DNA of 64,000 nucleotides from Prochlorothrix hollandica PCC 9006 = CALU 1027 (GTDB lineage Bacteria; Cyanobacteriota; Cyanobacteriia; Prochlorotrichales; Prochlorotrichaceae): NCBI RefSeq assembly GCF_000332315.1, contig NZ_KB235933.1, forward strand, positions 464,013 to 528,012. Direction: 5' to 3'. Below, in pieces: positions 27,550 to 34,638 of the stretch. The translations under genes and the position numbers were made by a program. Numbering within the stretch: position 1 is the stretch's first letter; every line of letters begins with the position of its first letter. Under the pieces are notes generated by a model that saw only the letters and a program-made list of their open reading frames with translations, was not told the origin of the DNA and made no database searches.

Positions 27550-30500
27550 ATGCAAAAATATTGGCAAGTTTGCGTGGGGCTGGGGTTGCTGCTGGGAGGA
27601 GTGCCGCCGGTCTATGGGCAGGACTGTGGGACGGAAGCCTTGGAGATGGCGATCGCGGACTTGGAACAACCGACGCTGCCCCCGGCAGCGGAGGCGGTAT
27701 TGGTGGCCTGTGGAGAGGAGGCGGTGGAGCCGTTGGTGCGGGTGTTGAACGGGGGGCATGGGGGAGCGCAGGGGAATGCGGCGCGGGTGTTGGGGTTATT
27801 GGGAGCGGAGGGGGCGGCGGCAGTGGAGCCGTTGGTGGCGACGGTGTTGACGGCGGAGGAGGAGGTGTTGGTGCGCAGACGGGCGATCGAGGCGTTGGCG
27901 AGCATTGCCCAGGGGGTGGCGGATGGGACCGGGGAGATCCGAGGGTGGCAGACGGGGGCGGTGGCGGAGGTGGTGGAACTGAAGGATGAGTTGCAGCGCT
28001 TGGTTCAGCCGCAGCCCGGGGATCTCAAGATTCCGCAACGGGAGCAATTTGGGCCGGCGTTGAAGCAGTTGGGGTCCGCGCAGCGGGCGGTGGCAACGGC
28101 GGCGGGGAACTTGGAAGAGGATCCGGTTTATCAAATTGTGAGTTGGATCCAGGGGAATGCTTGGGTCTGGGGGCTGGTGATCTATGGGGGTGGGTATGGG
28201 TTGATTTTTTGGTGGAGGCCGTTGGGGTTGTTGGGGTTGGCGGAGTTTCAGGAGTCGGTGCTGGCGGCTATTCCGGAGTCGGTGCCGCTGTTGCGACCGG
28301 GGTTAACGGCGGTGTTGGGGGTGGTGTTGCCGGGGAAGTATGCGCCTCGGGTCTTGGATGCATGGGTGGAGGAACAGTTACAAGCTAAAGCAGGACAGCA
28401 ATCACCCGTAGAGCGGCGGTTTCAAAACATTGAAACGGTTAAAGATCGGAAAAATCGGGTGTGGTTACCGGTGAAGCTCAATGGTGAGAAGAAAACGGAT
28501 GCCCGTGACTTTACTCCAGAGGCCTTAAGCCCATTGTTTGCGGATACAACTGTGGGGGTGTGGATCGAAGGGGAAGGGGGATCCGGAAAAACGAGCCTTG
28601 CCTTTGAGATTGCCCAGTGGGGCTTGGCGGGGAAGCTGACAAAACATCGGATGTTACCGGTGCTGATTGAGGATGAGCCAGGAGAGGAAAATCTGCTGAC
28701 GTTGATACGAAAGCAATTAGGGATGTTGATCGGAGAGAAGGAAACCCTAGACGATGGCCTGGTGCGGAGTTTGCTCCGGGAGAAGCGGGTGCTGGTGATT
28801 CTGGATCATGTTTCGGAGATGAAGGAGGAGTCCCAAAGAAAGCTGGAGGCCCGGACGGAGGATGTGCAGATTAATGCCTTGATGGTAACGGCGCGGTATG
28901 TGCCTAATACGTTGAATAGTTTGTGGAAGTTTTGCAAGGTTAAGCTGAACCCAACTCTGCTGCGGGGGGCTGTGCTGCTGCAGTTTGTGGAAGACTATTT
29001 GCGCAAACAGGGGGCGGAGAATTTGTTGGTGAAGGGGGAAGATTATGAGGTGTGTTCGGGGTTGACTCGGATGGCGGAAGAGCGCAACATTACGGCGCTG
29101 CTGGCCACCTTGTATGTGGATCAGTTACTACAGTGGGAGAACGGGCAGGGGGGGGATTTACCGGAGAGTACCCCGGTGCTGATGCTGAGCTATATCAATA
29201 AACTTAATGAGGTGATTGATGAAAAGGATCGGCAGAAAAATTGGACCGTACAACGGGATCTAAAGGCCATAGCTTGGTGTTGTGTCCAGACATCATTTTA
29301 TCCCGCAAAGACATCCAGGGATAGGGTTGTAGAGGTGCTAGAAAATATGGAGGCAGAAAAAACGGCGGAAGACCGGCTGAATTATCTGGTGCAACGGCTC
29401 AATTTAGTGCATGAATCTGGGGGAGGGCAGTCGCTGCGAATTGCTTTGGATCCGGTGGCAGAATATTTAGTGGGTTTGTATTTGATTGATGTCCATGGGG
29501 ACCAGCAGGAGCAATGGGACAACCTATTTGCGGAGATTGAGGAAACAGTGCAGCCAGGAGACGGGAACGCAGATCAGGCGATAGACGACAATCGAGGGAC
29601 GCAGTTCCAGGCGGTGCAGGGATTGTTATTGGCGATTAGGGACTGTTGCAAGGATAAGGAGAGGAGCAAGCCAATTCCGGATGGTTTGGTGAAGCAACTG
29701 GAGGATCGGGCGGGTTTGGATCAGGAAAAATTGCGGGCGGAGCAGCAACGGTATCGGCTGAAGCGGTTGATGGAGGATCTGTCCGTACCGGAAGCAGCAG
29801 ATCGACTCAGAGCGGCCCAGGAACTGGGGAAAATGGGGCCACAGGCTAAAAGGGCGACCCCTAGACTGGGGAAAGTTTTACAGGATGCTAGTGATGTCTG
29901 GCCGGTGCGTGTAGAAGCTGCTAAAGCACTGAGGCAAATTGGTTCGGAATTCCCGCTGGTGGTGGTGGAATGGCATGGGGGTGCGCCACAATTTCAGCTA
30001 CTCGATCAGCCTACCCCGCACAGGGTAACGCTCCCGGAGGGGGTGGTGTTGGATCTGGTGAAGATTCCTGGGGGGGAGTTTTGGATGGGTTCTGATGAAT
30101 CAGATCGGGCATCACCGCGACATTTAGTAAAGGTTCCAGAGTTTTACATGGGGAAATACCCCGTTACCCAGGCCCAATGGCGGGCGGTGGCTGCGTTGCC
30201 CCCAGAAGAACTGACGTTAGACCCGAATCCATCCCACTCCCAGGGGGATGATCGGCCCGTGGAGACGGTGTCTTGGCGAGAAGCCCGAGAATTTTGCCTG
30301 CGGTTGTCGGCCTATGTCGGTGCAACCTATGATCTGCCCACGGAAGCAGAGTGGGAGTATGCCTGTCGAGGGGGAACCGAAACGGCCTACCACTTTGGGG
30401 ATGAGATCACAACAGATCTGGCTAACTGTGGTGGTCCCAATGCCCCCCAGGAAACCACACCCGTGGGGCACTATGGCATAGGGAACCGGTGGGAACTGTA

Positions 30501-30777
30501 TGACCTCCATGGCAACGTTTGGGAGTGGTGTTTGGATCCATGGCATGGGAGTCATGGGGACAAACCCGCCGCCTTGCAGGAAGATGGATCGCGGCCCTGG
30601 CTAGACGAAGAAATCGATATATCGCTACATAGCGATAAAAGTCGGCTGTTGCGGGGTGGTTCCTGGAACCTCAGTCCGAGGACTTGCCGTTCTGCCTATC
30701 GCAACTACGATGTTCCGGGCGTTCGCGACTACAGCTACGGTTTTCGCGTTGTCTGTCGTGGTCCCAGGACTCCCTAG
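27550..30777 (+). CDS. Signal peptide-HEAT-TM-NACHT-HEAT-FGE-fold protein (STAND-like, candidate DGR target)
   Basis: This is a 1075-residue protein. Residues 1-23 are a Sec signal-like segment. HEAT-like helices follow (~50-125) and would lie outside the cytoplasm. One membrane helix (~202-222) leads into a cytoplasmic NACHT/P-loop NTPase with GEGGSGKTS (~340-349) and a Walker-B-like VLVILDHVSEM (~415). A second HEAT segment (~750-800) precedes a C-terminal formylglycine-generating-enzyme/C-type-lectin fold (~830-1075: IPGGEFWMGS, YPVTQAQW, LPTEAEWEYACRGG, DLHGNVWEWCLDPW). At the FGE active-site Cys pair only the second Cys is present, so it is probably a binding module, not an enzyme. Its last ~35 codons have the look of a DGR variable region. 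A receptor-like conflict or defence ATPase is inferred. Confidence 0.8.
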   Translation: MQKYWQVCVGLGLLLGGVPPVYGQDCGTEALEMAIADLEQPTLPPAAEAVLVACGEEAVEPLVRVLNGGHGGAQGNAARVLGLLGAEGAAAVEPLVATVLTAEEEVLVRRRAIEALASIAQGVADGTGEIRGWQTGAVAEVVELKDELQRLVQPQPGDLKIPQREQFGPALKQLGSAQRAVATAAGNLEEDPVYQIVSWIQGNAWVWGLVIYGGGYGLIFWWRPLGLLGLAEFQESVLAAIPESVPLLRPGLTAVLGVVLPGKYAPRVLDAWVEEQLQAKAGQQSPVERRFQNIETVKDRKNRVWLPVKLNGEKKTDARDFTPEALSPLFADTTVGVWIEGEGGSGKTSLAFEIAQWGLAGKLTKHRMLPVLIEDEPGEENLLTLIRKQLGMLIGEKETLDDGLVRSLLREKRVLVILDHVSEMKEESQRKLEARTEDVQINALMVTARYVPNTLNSLWKFCKVKLNPTLLRGAVLLQFVEDYLRKQGAENLLVKGEDYEVCSGLTRMAEERNITALLATLYVDQLLQWENGQGGDLPESTPVLMLSYINKLNEVIDEKDRQKNWTVQRDLKAIAWCCVQTSFYPAKTSRDRVVEVLENMEAEKTAEDRLNYLVQRLNLVHESGGGQSLRIALDPVAEYLVGLYLIDVHGDQQEQWDNLFAEIEETVQPGDGNADQAIDDNRGTQFQAVQGLLLAIRDCCKDKERSKPIPDGLVKQLEDRAGLDQEKLRAEQQRYRLKRLMEDLSVPEAADRLRAAQELGKMGPQAKRATPRLGKVLQDASDVWPVRVEAAKALRQIGSEFPLVVVEWHGGAPQFQLLDQPTPHRVTLPEGVVLDLVKIPGGEFWMGSDESDRASPRHLVKVPEFYMGKYPVTQAQWRAVAALPPEELTLDPNPSHSQGDDRPVETVSWREAREFCLRLSAYVGATYDLPTEAEWEYACRGGTETAYHFGDEITTDLANCGGPNAPQETTPVGHYGIGNRWELYDLHGNVWEWCLDPWHGSHGDKPAALQEDGSRPWLDEEIDISLHSDKSRLLRGGSWNLSPRTCRSAYRNYDVPGVRDYSYGFRVVCRGPRTP
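30652..30770 (+). other. Candidate DGR variable region (VR) at the 3' end of the FGE-fold domain
   Basis: The coding text reads LRGGSW followed by residues interrupted by fixed CRSA, R, R and GFRVVC. The positions that are Asn in typical cyanobacterial DGR templates are here occupied by Leu, Ser, Thr, Tyr, Asn, Tyr, Asp, Val, Asp, Tyr, Ser and Tyr, and every one of those codons ends in C or T (NNY), as expected if AAC/AAT codons were randomised at adenines. No reverse transcriptase or template repeat is in the window, so the VR status is an inference. Confidence 0.5.
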
Positions 30778-30830
30778 CCCTTTACCCTATAGTACTTTTG
30801 CACTATGCACTCTTCTCTTTACCCTTGGTT

Positions 30831-30857
30831 TCGCGCGTCAGCGCGATCGATTTTTTT
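30831..30857 (+). terminator. Rho-independent terminator or DGR-type hairpin after the FGE-fold gene
   Basis: The stem TCGCGC (30831-30836), loop GTCA and stem GCGCGA (30841-30846) are followed after four bases by seven T residues (30851-30857). It lies ~54 nt after the stop codon. It fits a terminator; DGR variable regions are also typically followed by a short G/C hairpin. Confidence 0.65.
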
Positions 30858-32740: not shown

Positions 32741-33691
32741 ATGAGCACTAACATCACCCTTGATGATTTCTATAAATTGTTCCAAGAAAGCGAACGCCAG
32801 CGCCAGGAGACCGAACGCATCCTCCAGCAATCCTGGGAACAGTCCCGGTTGGCCTTGGAGCAGTCCCAGCTAGCCTGGGAACAGCGTCTCGCCCAGGAAG
32901 CCGCCGCCCGCCTCCAGACCCAGCAAGACTGGGAGCAGAAACTGGCCCAGGAAAAAGCGGCGCGGGAGCAGCAACTAGCGCAGGAAAAAGCGGCACGGGA
33001 GCAGCAACTCGCCGAAGAGAAAACGGCACGGGAGCAGCAACTCGCCCAGGAAAAAGCGGCACGGGAGCAGCAACTCGCCGAAGAGAAAACGGCACGGGAG
33101 CAGCAACTCGCCCAGGAAAAAGCGGCACGGGAGCAGCGACTAGTCGAAGAGAAAGCGGCATGGGAGCAGAAACTGGCCCGACGGGAGGCGGAGTGGGATC
33201 GCTCCCAGCGGGAATGGGAAAAACAGTATCAAGCGCTCACGGCGGTGGTCGATCGCACCAGTCGAGGCATTGACGGCTTAAATGGCCGCTGGGGTAAATT
33301 CGTGGAAAACTTTGTGGAACCGGCTGTGGTGCGGCTGTTCCAGGCGCGGGGTATTCCCGTGACGGAGACGGCTCAACGGGTGAAGCAAACGCGAGGCGAG
33401 TTTGCCATGGAAATTGATATTCTGGCGGAAAATGGGGATGTGGCGGTGGCGGTGGAAGTTAAATCCCACTTAACCCAGGATGCTGTGGATGAATTCTTGG
33501 GGAATTTAGTCAATTTTAAGCGGGCCTTCCCCAAATACCAAGCCTATCAAATCTATGGGGCCGTGGCGGGCATTGACATTGACAAGGGGGTGGATCGCTA
33601 TGCTTACCGCCAAGGTTTGTTTGTCATTCGCCAATCGGGGGATACCGTAGAATTGGCCAATAACCCTCAATTTCGTCCCACTCCCTGGTAA
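32741..33691 (+). CDS. Hendecad coiled-coil protein with PD-(D/E)XK-like nuclease domain, copy 1
   Basis: This is a 316-residue protein. Residues ~10-165 form a long Gln/Glu/Ala/Arg coiled coil made largely of an 11-residue unit (EKAAREQQLAQ/E) repeated about seven times, i.e. a hendecad. Residues ~180-316 form a globular domain with FVEPAVVRLF, then EIDILAENGDVAVAVEVKSHL, the D-x(n)-E-x-K core of PD-(D/E)XK nucleases, and LVNFKRAFPKYQAYQIYGAVAG. Related coiled-coil/nuclease-fold proteins are abundant in cyanobacteria; their role is not established. It is followed by an almost identical second copy, and the pair stems from a recent tandem duplication. Confidence 0.75.
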   Translation: MSTNITLDDFYKLFQESERQRQETERILQQSWEQSRLALEQSQLAWEQRLAQEAAARLQTQQDWEQKLAQEKAAREQQLAQEKAAREQQLAEEKTAREQQLAQEKAAREQQLAEEKTAREQQLAQEKAAREQRLVEEKAAWEQKLARREAEWDRSQREWEKQYQALTAVVDRTSRGIDGLNGRWGKFVENFVEPAVVRLFQARGIPVTETAQRVKQTRGEFAMEIDILAENGDVAVAVEVKSHLTQDAVDEFLGNLVNFKRAFPKYQAYQIYGAVAGIDIDKGVDRYAYRQGLFVIRQSGDTVELANNPQFRPTPW

Positions 33692-33700
33692 ACCCTTGTG

Positions 33701-33748
33701 ATGACAACTGCTATGAACCCCTTTTACAACCGCCGTTATAACCCCTAG
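33701..33748 (+). pseudogene. Stranded 5' end of the peroxiredoxin-like gene
   Basis: Between the two coiled-coil nuclease genes are 16 codons, ATG to TAG, reading MTTAMNPFYNRRYNP. The first eight or so match the true start of the downstream gene at 34648 (MTTAMNPYYLL) with the same upstream context (AAACCCTTGTG). This is the scar of the tandem duplication, which copied the nuclease gene together with the first codons of its downstream neighbour. Confidence 0.7.
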
Positions 33749-33753
33749 CCTCT

Positions 33754-34638
33754 ATGAGCACTAACATCACCCTTGATGATTTCTATAAATTGTTCCAAGA
33801 AAGCGAACGCCAGCGCCAGGAGACCGAACGCATCCTCCAGCAATCCTGGGAACAGTCCCGGTTGGCCTTGGAGCAGTCCCAGCTAGCCTGGGAACAGCGT
33901 CTCGCCCAGGAAGCCGCCGCCCGCCTCCAGACCCAGCAAGACTGGGAGCAGAAACTGGCCCAGGAAAAAGCGGCACGGGAGCAGCAACTAGCCCAAGAGA
34001 AAGCGGTGCGGGAGCAGCAACTGGCCCAGGAAAAAGTGGCACGGGAGCAGCAACTAGCCGAAGAGAAAACGGCACGGGAGCAGCAACTAGCCGAAGAGAA
34101 AACGGCACGGGAGCAGCAACTGGCCCGACGGGAGGCGGAGTGGGATCGCTCCCAGCGGGAATGGGAAAAACAGTATCAAGCGCTCACGGCGGTGGTCGAT
34201 CGCACCAGTCGAGGCATTGACGGCTTAAATGGCCGCTGGGGTAAATTTGTGGAAAACTTTGTGGAACCGGCTGTGGTGCGGCTGTTCCAGGCGCGGGGTA
34301 TTCCCGTGACGGAGACGGCCCAACGGGTGAAGCAAACGCGAGGCGAGTTTGCCATGGAAATTGATATTCTGGCGGAAAATGGGGATGTGGCGGTGGCGGT
34401 GGAAGTTAAATCCCACTTAACCCAGGATGCTGTGGATGAATTTCTGGGGAATTTAGTCAATTTTAAGCGGGCCTTCCCCAAATACCAAGCCTATCAAATC
34501 TATGGGGCGGTGGCGGGCATTGACATTGACAAGGGGGTGGATCGCTATGCTTACCGCCAAGGTTTGTTTGTCATTCGCCAGTCGGGAGATACCGTAGAAC
34601 TAGCGAATAACCCTCAGTTTCGTCCCACTCCCTGGTAA
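33754..34638 (+). CDS. Hendecad coiled-coil protein with PD-(D/E)XK-like nuclease domain, copy 2
   Basis: This 294-residue protein is nearly identical to copy 1 over the first ~75 residues and the whole C-terminal nuclease-like domain, which keeps EIDILAENGDVAVAVEVKS. It is shorter by exactly 22 residues, two 11-residue coiled-coil units (66 bp), and the units have slightly different sequence, so repeat number is evolving by slippage or unequal exchange. The ends of the nuclease domains are identical (PQFRPTPW). It is followed closely by a peroxiredoxin-like gene (ATG 34648), probably in one transcript. Confidence 0.75.
   Translation: MSTNITLDDFYKLFQESERQRQETERILQQSWEQSRLALEQSQLAWEQRLAQEAAARLQTQQDWEQKLAQEKAAREQQLAQEKAVREQQLAQEKVAREQQLAEEKTAREQQLAEEKTAREQQLARREAEWDRSQREWEKQYQALTAVVDRTSRGIDGLNGRWGKFVENFVEPAVVRLFQARGIPVTETAQRVKQTRGEFAMEIDILAENGDVAVAVEVKSHLTQDAVDEFLGNLVNFKRAFPKYQAYQIYGAVAGIDIDKGVDRYAYRQGLFVIRQSGDTVELANNPQFRPTPW

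Follow-up and report, generated by a model that had tools for sequence, protein, structure and literature searches.

Proteins that join a STAND NTPase to an FGS domain and occur with diversity-generating retroelements (DGRs) have been proposed as analogues of adaptive receptors (PMC8195603), and NACHT NTPases fused to DGR-diversified C-type lectin (CLec) domains have been proposed to sense antigens in Thiohalocapsa (PMC10907252). The idea of a diversified STAND/NACHT-FGE sensor is therefore already published. Among cyanobacteria, most targets of DGR clade 5E are tied to VMAP ternary systems in the main text of PMC10907252, ternary systems with diversified FGS domains are described in PMC7159879, remote variable proteins in PMC7517822, and adenine-specific hypermutation in Nostoc punctiforme in PMC12691664. 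Here we analysed a 64,000-nucleotide stretch of the Prochlorothrix hollandica PCC 9006 genome (hereafter the window; GCF_000332315.1, NZ_KB235933.1, positions 464,013 to 528,012). It contains a gene for a predicted membrane-anchored HEAT-NACHT-HEAT protein ending in an FGE-fold domain. We conclude, with a probability of about 85%, that this gene encodes a variable protein targeted remotely by a cyanobacterial DGR.

The locus resembles each described system in part. Like the NACHT-CLec proteins of Thiohalocapsa PB-PSB1 (DGR 3, clade 5D; PMC10907252), the window protein has a central NACHT and an apparently DGR-diversified C-terminal CLec fold, and for those proteins too a membrane or periplasmic placement was considered and an antigen sensor proposed. 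They belong to a gammaproteobacterial clade, whereas the window protein is cyanobacterial, with a signal peptide, HEAT repeats flanking NACHT, and NCH4. With the STAND NTPase-FGS conflict proteins of PMC8195603 it shares the pairing of a STAND NTPase with FGS (PF03781) and a DGR nearby or elsewhere in the genome, but those proteins often begin with effector-associated domains (EADs) or effectors, while at the N-terminus of the window protein stands a transmembrane-anchored HEAT region, in which no effector is recognised. In cyanobacteria, remote variable proteins likewise carry a variable region (VR) in a C-terminal CLec domain and are scattered away from the reverse transcriptase (RT); the same source notes remnant homology between template repeat (TR) and VR without a proximal RT (PMC7517822). 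Among the N-terminal partners its main text lists are kinase, TIR, CHAT, GUN4, VWA and ARM/TPR domains, but neither NACHT nor HEAT. The closest PDB sequence to the FGE domain, with a matching fold, is TvpA of Treponema denticola (2y3c), a DGR variable protein that lacks an NTPase part. The DGR of Bordetella phage BPP-1 provides the general parts list of TR and VR, Avd, RT, an initiation of mutagenic homing (IMH) element and a hairpin downstream of the VR (PMC3240598).

NACHT-FGE homologues and their templates

The strongest evidence for a DGR origin comes from relatives that have an RT and TR in cis or a matching TR elsewhere. A class-wide search with the HEAT/transmembrane/NACHT/HEAT module (residues 1-826) found it in 39 of 390 genomes, this one included, ending in HEAT repeats in some and FGE in others. 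On the tree, the modules that bear FGE group together (2 changes versus 7.5 when shuffled), and the nearest neighbours of the window protein, which itself sits on a long branch, all bear FGE. Below, G, C and L numbers denote genomes, contigs of this assembly and loci, respectively. A NACHT-FGE gene lies in cis with an RT and TR in G219, G274 and G375, in an order that reads directly as gene-Avd-RT-TR in G219. Mismatches between TR and VR fell at template adenines in 12/12, 18/19 and 10/10 cases, respectively. In G006 (13/13 mismatches at adenine) and G313 (11/11), the TR that matches the NACHT-FGE VR lies on a different contig; the proteins of these two genomes keep the complete order of signal peptide, HEAT, transmembrane helix, NACHT, HEAT and FGE. 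Pooled across the five genomes, 64 of the 65 mismatches were at template adenines (P per case from 4.5e-7 to 7e-12), and non-cognate TRs in G006, used as a control, gave 14-28 non-adenine mismatches. Judged by these template comparisons, HEAT-NACHT-HEAT-FGE proteins are established as DGR targets in other cyanobacteria.

Not every homologue had a fitting template. G124 and G144 possess an RT, but the template tested in each does not fit the NACHT-FGE homologue, and the G304 genome gave no DGR RT match. In G304, an intact TR spacer RNA follows the NACHT-FGE VR without interruption (L157:825-924, 92.8 bits), making this locus either a VR/TR fusion or a remnant. The window copy belongs with such orphaned members of a genuine DGR-target family.

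Variable region and retroelement in Prochlorothrix

The features of the window gene that bear on diversification are:

30639-30790, plus strand: block common to the window gene and a gene at 1009 kb on contig C9 (86%, blastn); presumed retrohomed segment with its edges
30667-30738, plus strand: the 24 codons that vary in the VR, mostly NNY, from comparison with the other Prochlorothrix VRs and TRs and with TRs of relatives
30739-30773, plus strand: invariant 3' end of the VR with an IMH-like element ending CCCAGGACTCC, from VR/TR comparison over loci
30831-30857, plus strand: GC hairpin (6-bp stem, 4-nt loop) with a T run after it; may be a DGR target hairpin, a terminator or both

NNY codons made up 23 of the 26 examined after the GGSW motif, versus 44% elsewhere in the FGE domain (binomial P 2.8e-6). 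The original prediction had called all intervening codons NNY, which slightly overstates the case because CCG, AGG and CCG depart from the pattern. Two residues after the Trp of GGSW stands a variable codon (Leu), and five residues further on a conserved Cys; by analogy with SUMF1, these may be the positions of the two FGE active-site cysteines. At the IMH-like end, recipients including the window gene mostly read GGACT and templates mostly GCACT or GTACT, with some G006 copies departing from this rule.

The window VR has a sister in this genome, and we refer to the two as family A. The gene at C9:1009 kb encodes 717 amino acids and its DNA is otherwise unrelated to the window gene, homology being confined to a block of about 150 bp whose identity stops upstream of AAGtCGGCTG. 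Apart from one codon indel, the two cores differ at 15 sites, of which 7 are at codon position 1, 8 at position 2, and none at position 3. Since the third positions are identical, the last retrohoming was recent. We read the pair as two retrohoming events from one adenine-rich template. At the level of sequence, these patterns demonstrate that the VR in the tail has undergone adenine-templated retrohoming in its recent history. A near-copy of 30652-30770 had been anticipated, and one exists, but it is this second VR rather than a template.

The GC hairpin described in the original prediction is present at 30831-30846 (TCGCGC-GTCA-GCGCGA). Equivalent hairpins with a 6-bp stem and 3-4-nt loop occur +49 to +59 after the stop codon in 7 of 11 related genes, compared to a shuffled rate of 0.0011. 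Homing in BPP-1 needs a hairpin downstream of the VR (PMC3240598). A T run usually follows the hairpin in related genes, however, so a terminator role is equally possible.

A DGR RT, which the original prediction required somewhere in the genome, was found. Searching the genome with PF00078 gave two RT matches, on C9 and C6. The C9 match (C9:101797-102882, 362 amino acids, with LPIGNLTSQ and YVDD motifs) is the only DGR-type RT match in the genome and is 60-68% identical to RTs of other cyanobacterial DGR loci. It adjoins an Avd gene scoring above cut-offs (NF033474, 135 bits with a cut-off of 80; PF22296, 69 bits). Together with a TR just downstream and three FGE targets, these genes form one complete DGR, on a different contig from the window. 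Mismatches of the three target VRs to the C9 TR fell at its adenines in 13/13, 10/10 and 11/14 cases. The C6 match was rejected as a second DGR RT, being a truncated DRT4/DRT6-like RT. Conflict-system genes stand by the C9 cassette (L011:3552-10351), namely a MoxR-like AAA, a 922-amino-acid FGE target, an EAD9-trypsin and a Trypco2.

A detached template lies on C4 at 225.5 kb (L014:9500-9760), where an adenine-rich TR and spacer RNA sit inside an FGE gene fragment and no RT was found close by. Mismatches to this TR fell at adenines in 10/11, 13/14, 13/14 and 14/17 cases for FGE targets on C4, C1, C12 and C1, respectively. Neither known TR could serve as the template of the window VR, as the C9 and C4 TRs were rejected with 21 and 18 non-adenine mismatches, respectively.

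Other repeats and RNAs were observed around these loci. Four further VRs (L083:2449, L083:3382, L084:3298 and L085:962), two of them within one 926-amino-acid protein, differ from each other mainly at codon positions 1-2, and their template was not found in this genome. A search of this genome with an inferred family-D template matched only VRs and known TRs. The locus L013:1833-4891 encodes a caspase-FGE protein followed by a Pepco-domain gene; the 3' flank of the caspase-FGE gene is nearly identical to window positions 30778-30827, yet the VRs differ. A conserved structured RNA of about 98 nt follows cyanobacterial TRs (e.g., L011:11503-11600 and L099:3764-3858, both on the minus strand, and L143). 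Its cells are 98% paired, 11 of its 22 pairs show double-sided changes, and its covariation exceeded that of all 500 shuffles. Rfam had no match for this RNA, nor any in the window or the DGR loci.

Protein architecture and proposed mechanism

The open reading frame is intact and is divided as follows:

27550-30777, plus strand: whole gene, 1075 amino acids, in the order signal peptide, HEAT, transmembrane helix, NACHT-NCH4, HEAT, FGE fold (open reading frame, Pfam, AlphaFold, Foldseek)
27550-27621, plus strand: signal-peptide-like N-terminus (MQKYWQVCVGLGLLLGGVPPVYGQ), from sequence reading and hydrophobic N-termini in homologues
27628-28155, plus strand: HEAT-like helical region near the N-terminus, with a predicted periplasmic or lumenal location (model residues 28-202; Pfam in homologues)
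28156-28215, plus strand: predicted transmembrane helix, residues ~203-222 (hydrophobic stretch)
28558-28896, plus strand: NACHT/NB-ARC-type NTPase core, residues 337-449, with Walker A GEGGSGKTS (Pfam; Foldseek matches to NLRs)
29611-29721, plus strand: NCH4 (NACHT C-terminal helical domain 4), residues 688-724 (Pfam, 38.3 bits, cut-off 27)
29770-29949, plus strand: C-terminal HEAT repeats, residues 741-800 (Pfam HEAT_2, 42 bits)
30052-30753, plus strand: FGE-sulfatase / C-type-lectin-fold domain, residues 835-1068 (Pfam PF03781, E 9.5e-45)

Hydrophobic N-termini are clear in the homologues of G006, G313, G304, G124, G219 and G274. Residues 28-202 form all-helical repeats in the AlphaFold model of the window protein, and Pfam placed HEAT_2 at the equivalent position in the G006 and G313 homologues. 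The hydrophobic stretch at ~203-222 is weak by Kyte-Doolittle in the window protein but clear in homologues. Pfam scored NACHT at residues 337-436 with 25.7 bits, just below the cut-off of 26.7, and NB-ARC on the same core with 21.9 bits; Walker A lies at residue 341 and a Walker B-like VLVILDH at 414. With both Walker motifs and a C-terminal helical module, the protein is a NACHT / NLR-like STAND NTPase. In the full AlphaFold model, helical repeats at the N-terminus precede a core resembling NACHT, and the C-terminus adopts an FGE fold; the best Foldseek matches of this model in the PDB were NLRs (NOD2, NLRP3 and NLRC4) and FGE-fold proteins. Pfam, hydropathy and this model agree with the domain order first read from the letters. 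The variable tail was low-confidence in the full model, and we make no claim about VR geometry because a model of the FGE domain alone was low-confidence there as well.

If the gene is a DGR target, RNA derived from a TR would be reverse-transcribed by an RT-Avd complex with random bases placed at adenines, and the cDNA would replace approximately 30667-30738. Roughly 15-20 residues on the ligand face of the FGE/C-type-lectin fold would change, with GGSW, CRSA and GFRVVC remaining fixed. By topology, a signal peptide and one transmembrane helix would put NACHT, the second HEAT region and FGE in the cytosol. Ligand bound to the variable face could then relieve the NACHT switch, which might oligomerise NLR-style at the membrane, with output, as a best guess, through the transmembrane/periplasmic HEAT part or a partner. 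The likely role of the protein is to expose a hypervariable sensor to the cytosol and couple it to an NLR-like switch.

Elsewhere in the window, two tandem near-identical coiled-coil genes (32741-34638; 316 and 294 amino acids) differ in the number of heptad-like repeats, and Pfam had no match for the first (316-amino-acid) gene.

Competing explanations and meaning

The RT, the sister VR and the five genomes with 64/65 adenine mismatches support both DGR diversification and the coupling of a diversified receptor to a STAND NTPase, as the original prediction proposed. Several results weigh against it. The expected template, differing from the window VR only at adenines, was not found in the assembly: a whole-VR IUPAC pattern search of the genome gave no template match, a search with an inferred family-A template returned only VRs and known TRs, and a covariance model of the TR 3' spacer RNA found only two spacers and no donor. 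In the three cis homologues, most of the N-terminal HEAT region is missing (G219 and G274 encode proteins of 984-989 amino acids, and a contig end cuts the G375 gene). The hairpins, with 6-bp stems and mixed-sequence loops of 3-4 nt located 49-59 nt after the stop, double as terminators and are shorter than those of phage DGRs, whose 7-10 bp stems carry GRNA loops at a distance of 4-34 bp from the VR (PMC3240598). PADLOC returned no defence-model match for the window protein or its G219 and G006 homologues, no effector gene was noticed beside the window gene in the surrounding list of open reading frames, and the cytosolic topology rests on hydropathy.

As its template is absent from the assembly, the window target may now be frozen. 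We give only slightly less than even odds to a fossil target, in which a once-diversified VR lost its template and the variant became a fixed receptor without current hypermutation; this is a sub-case of a DGR origin, and the two confidences overlap. Beyond the missing cognate TR, it draws on the ill-fitting templates of G124 and G144, on G304 with no RT match, and on the suggestion that diversification components are removed once an optimal variant is selected (PMC7517822). Against it stand the unchanged third codon positions of family A, the RT and Avd that are intact on C9, and the C4 template, evidence that in this genome a TR need not lie near an RT. Furthermore, 100-base N runs occur in some loci of this genome, and an assembly gap may conceal a template. 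The window gene is accordingly best described as a DGR-derived remote variable protein rather than as the target of a template known from the assembly, being either orphaned here or served by a template within a gap.

Explanations that dispense with a retroelement fare much worse. An ordinary FGE-domain family evolving by duplication and divergence under positive selection is very improbable: FGE domains are abundant in cyanobacteria and positive selection likewise favours non-synonymous sites, but family-A homology is limited to the ~150-bp block with unchanged third positions in the core, and homologues have TRs with nearly all mismatches at adenines. We give next to no credence to a fusion of NACHT with an active oxidoreductase, formylglycine-generating or related, in which the tail would vary naturally around the active site. 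Pfam and NCBIfam do match relatives of FGE, PvdO and EgtB, but the NCBIfam enzyme models score far under their cut-offs, the nearest PDB sequence is TvpA, and the tail is rewritten in relatives. A different question is what the protein senses. A role with small ligands or stress signals, rather than phage or antigen, was proposed for cyanobacterial DGR targets in 2020 on the grounds that their N-terminal partners are signal domains (PMC7517822), and the window gene has no recognisable effector domain. We nevertheless find a signalling or regulatory receptor unlikely, as the NACHT/STAND architecture and the MoxR-like AAA, EAD9-trypsin and Trypco2 genes beside DGR targets in the same genome fit a conflict model better.

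The membrane-anchored cyanobacterial HEAT-NACHT-HEAT-FGE proteins, their cis cassettes and the detached templates of this genome were not found in the main texts cited, and are in that sense new at the family level, although they may have been listed previously. Tentatively, and with the odds leaning against so full a picture, we propose a membrane-anchored NACHT receptor family spread over several cyanobacterial families, with a cytosolic sensor that a DGR rewrites in trans. For Prochlorothrix, this would mean a single RT working with several detached templates (those on C9 and C4, plus at least two that are unlocated) and with some twelve targets dispersed through the genome, forming an adaptive NLR-like repertoire.

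These results add NACHT proteins to the DGR targets of cyanobacteria; the earlier survey does not name them in its main text (PMC7517822). The family offers testable systems in the three genomes where a NACHT-FGE gene is in cis with an RT and TR, and the Prochlorothrix genome is itself a test of one RT serving templates and targets scattered over a chromosome. If the proteins are sensors, cyanobacteria would couple targeted hypermutation to an NLR-type switch, amounting to an adaptive receptor without lymphocytes.

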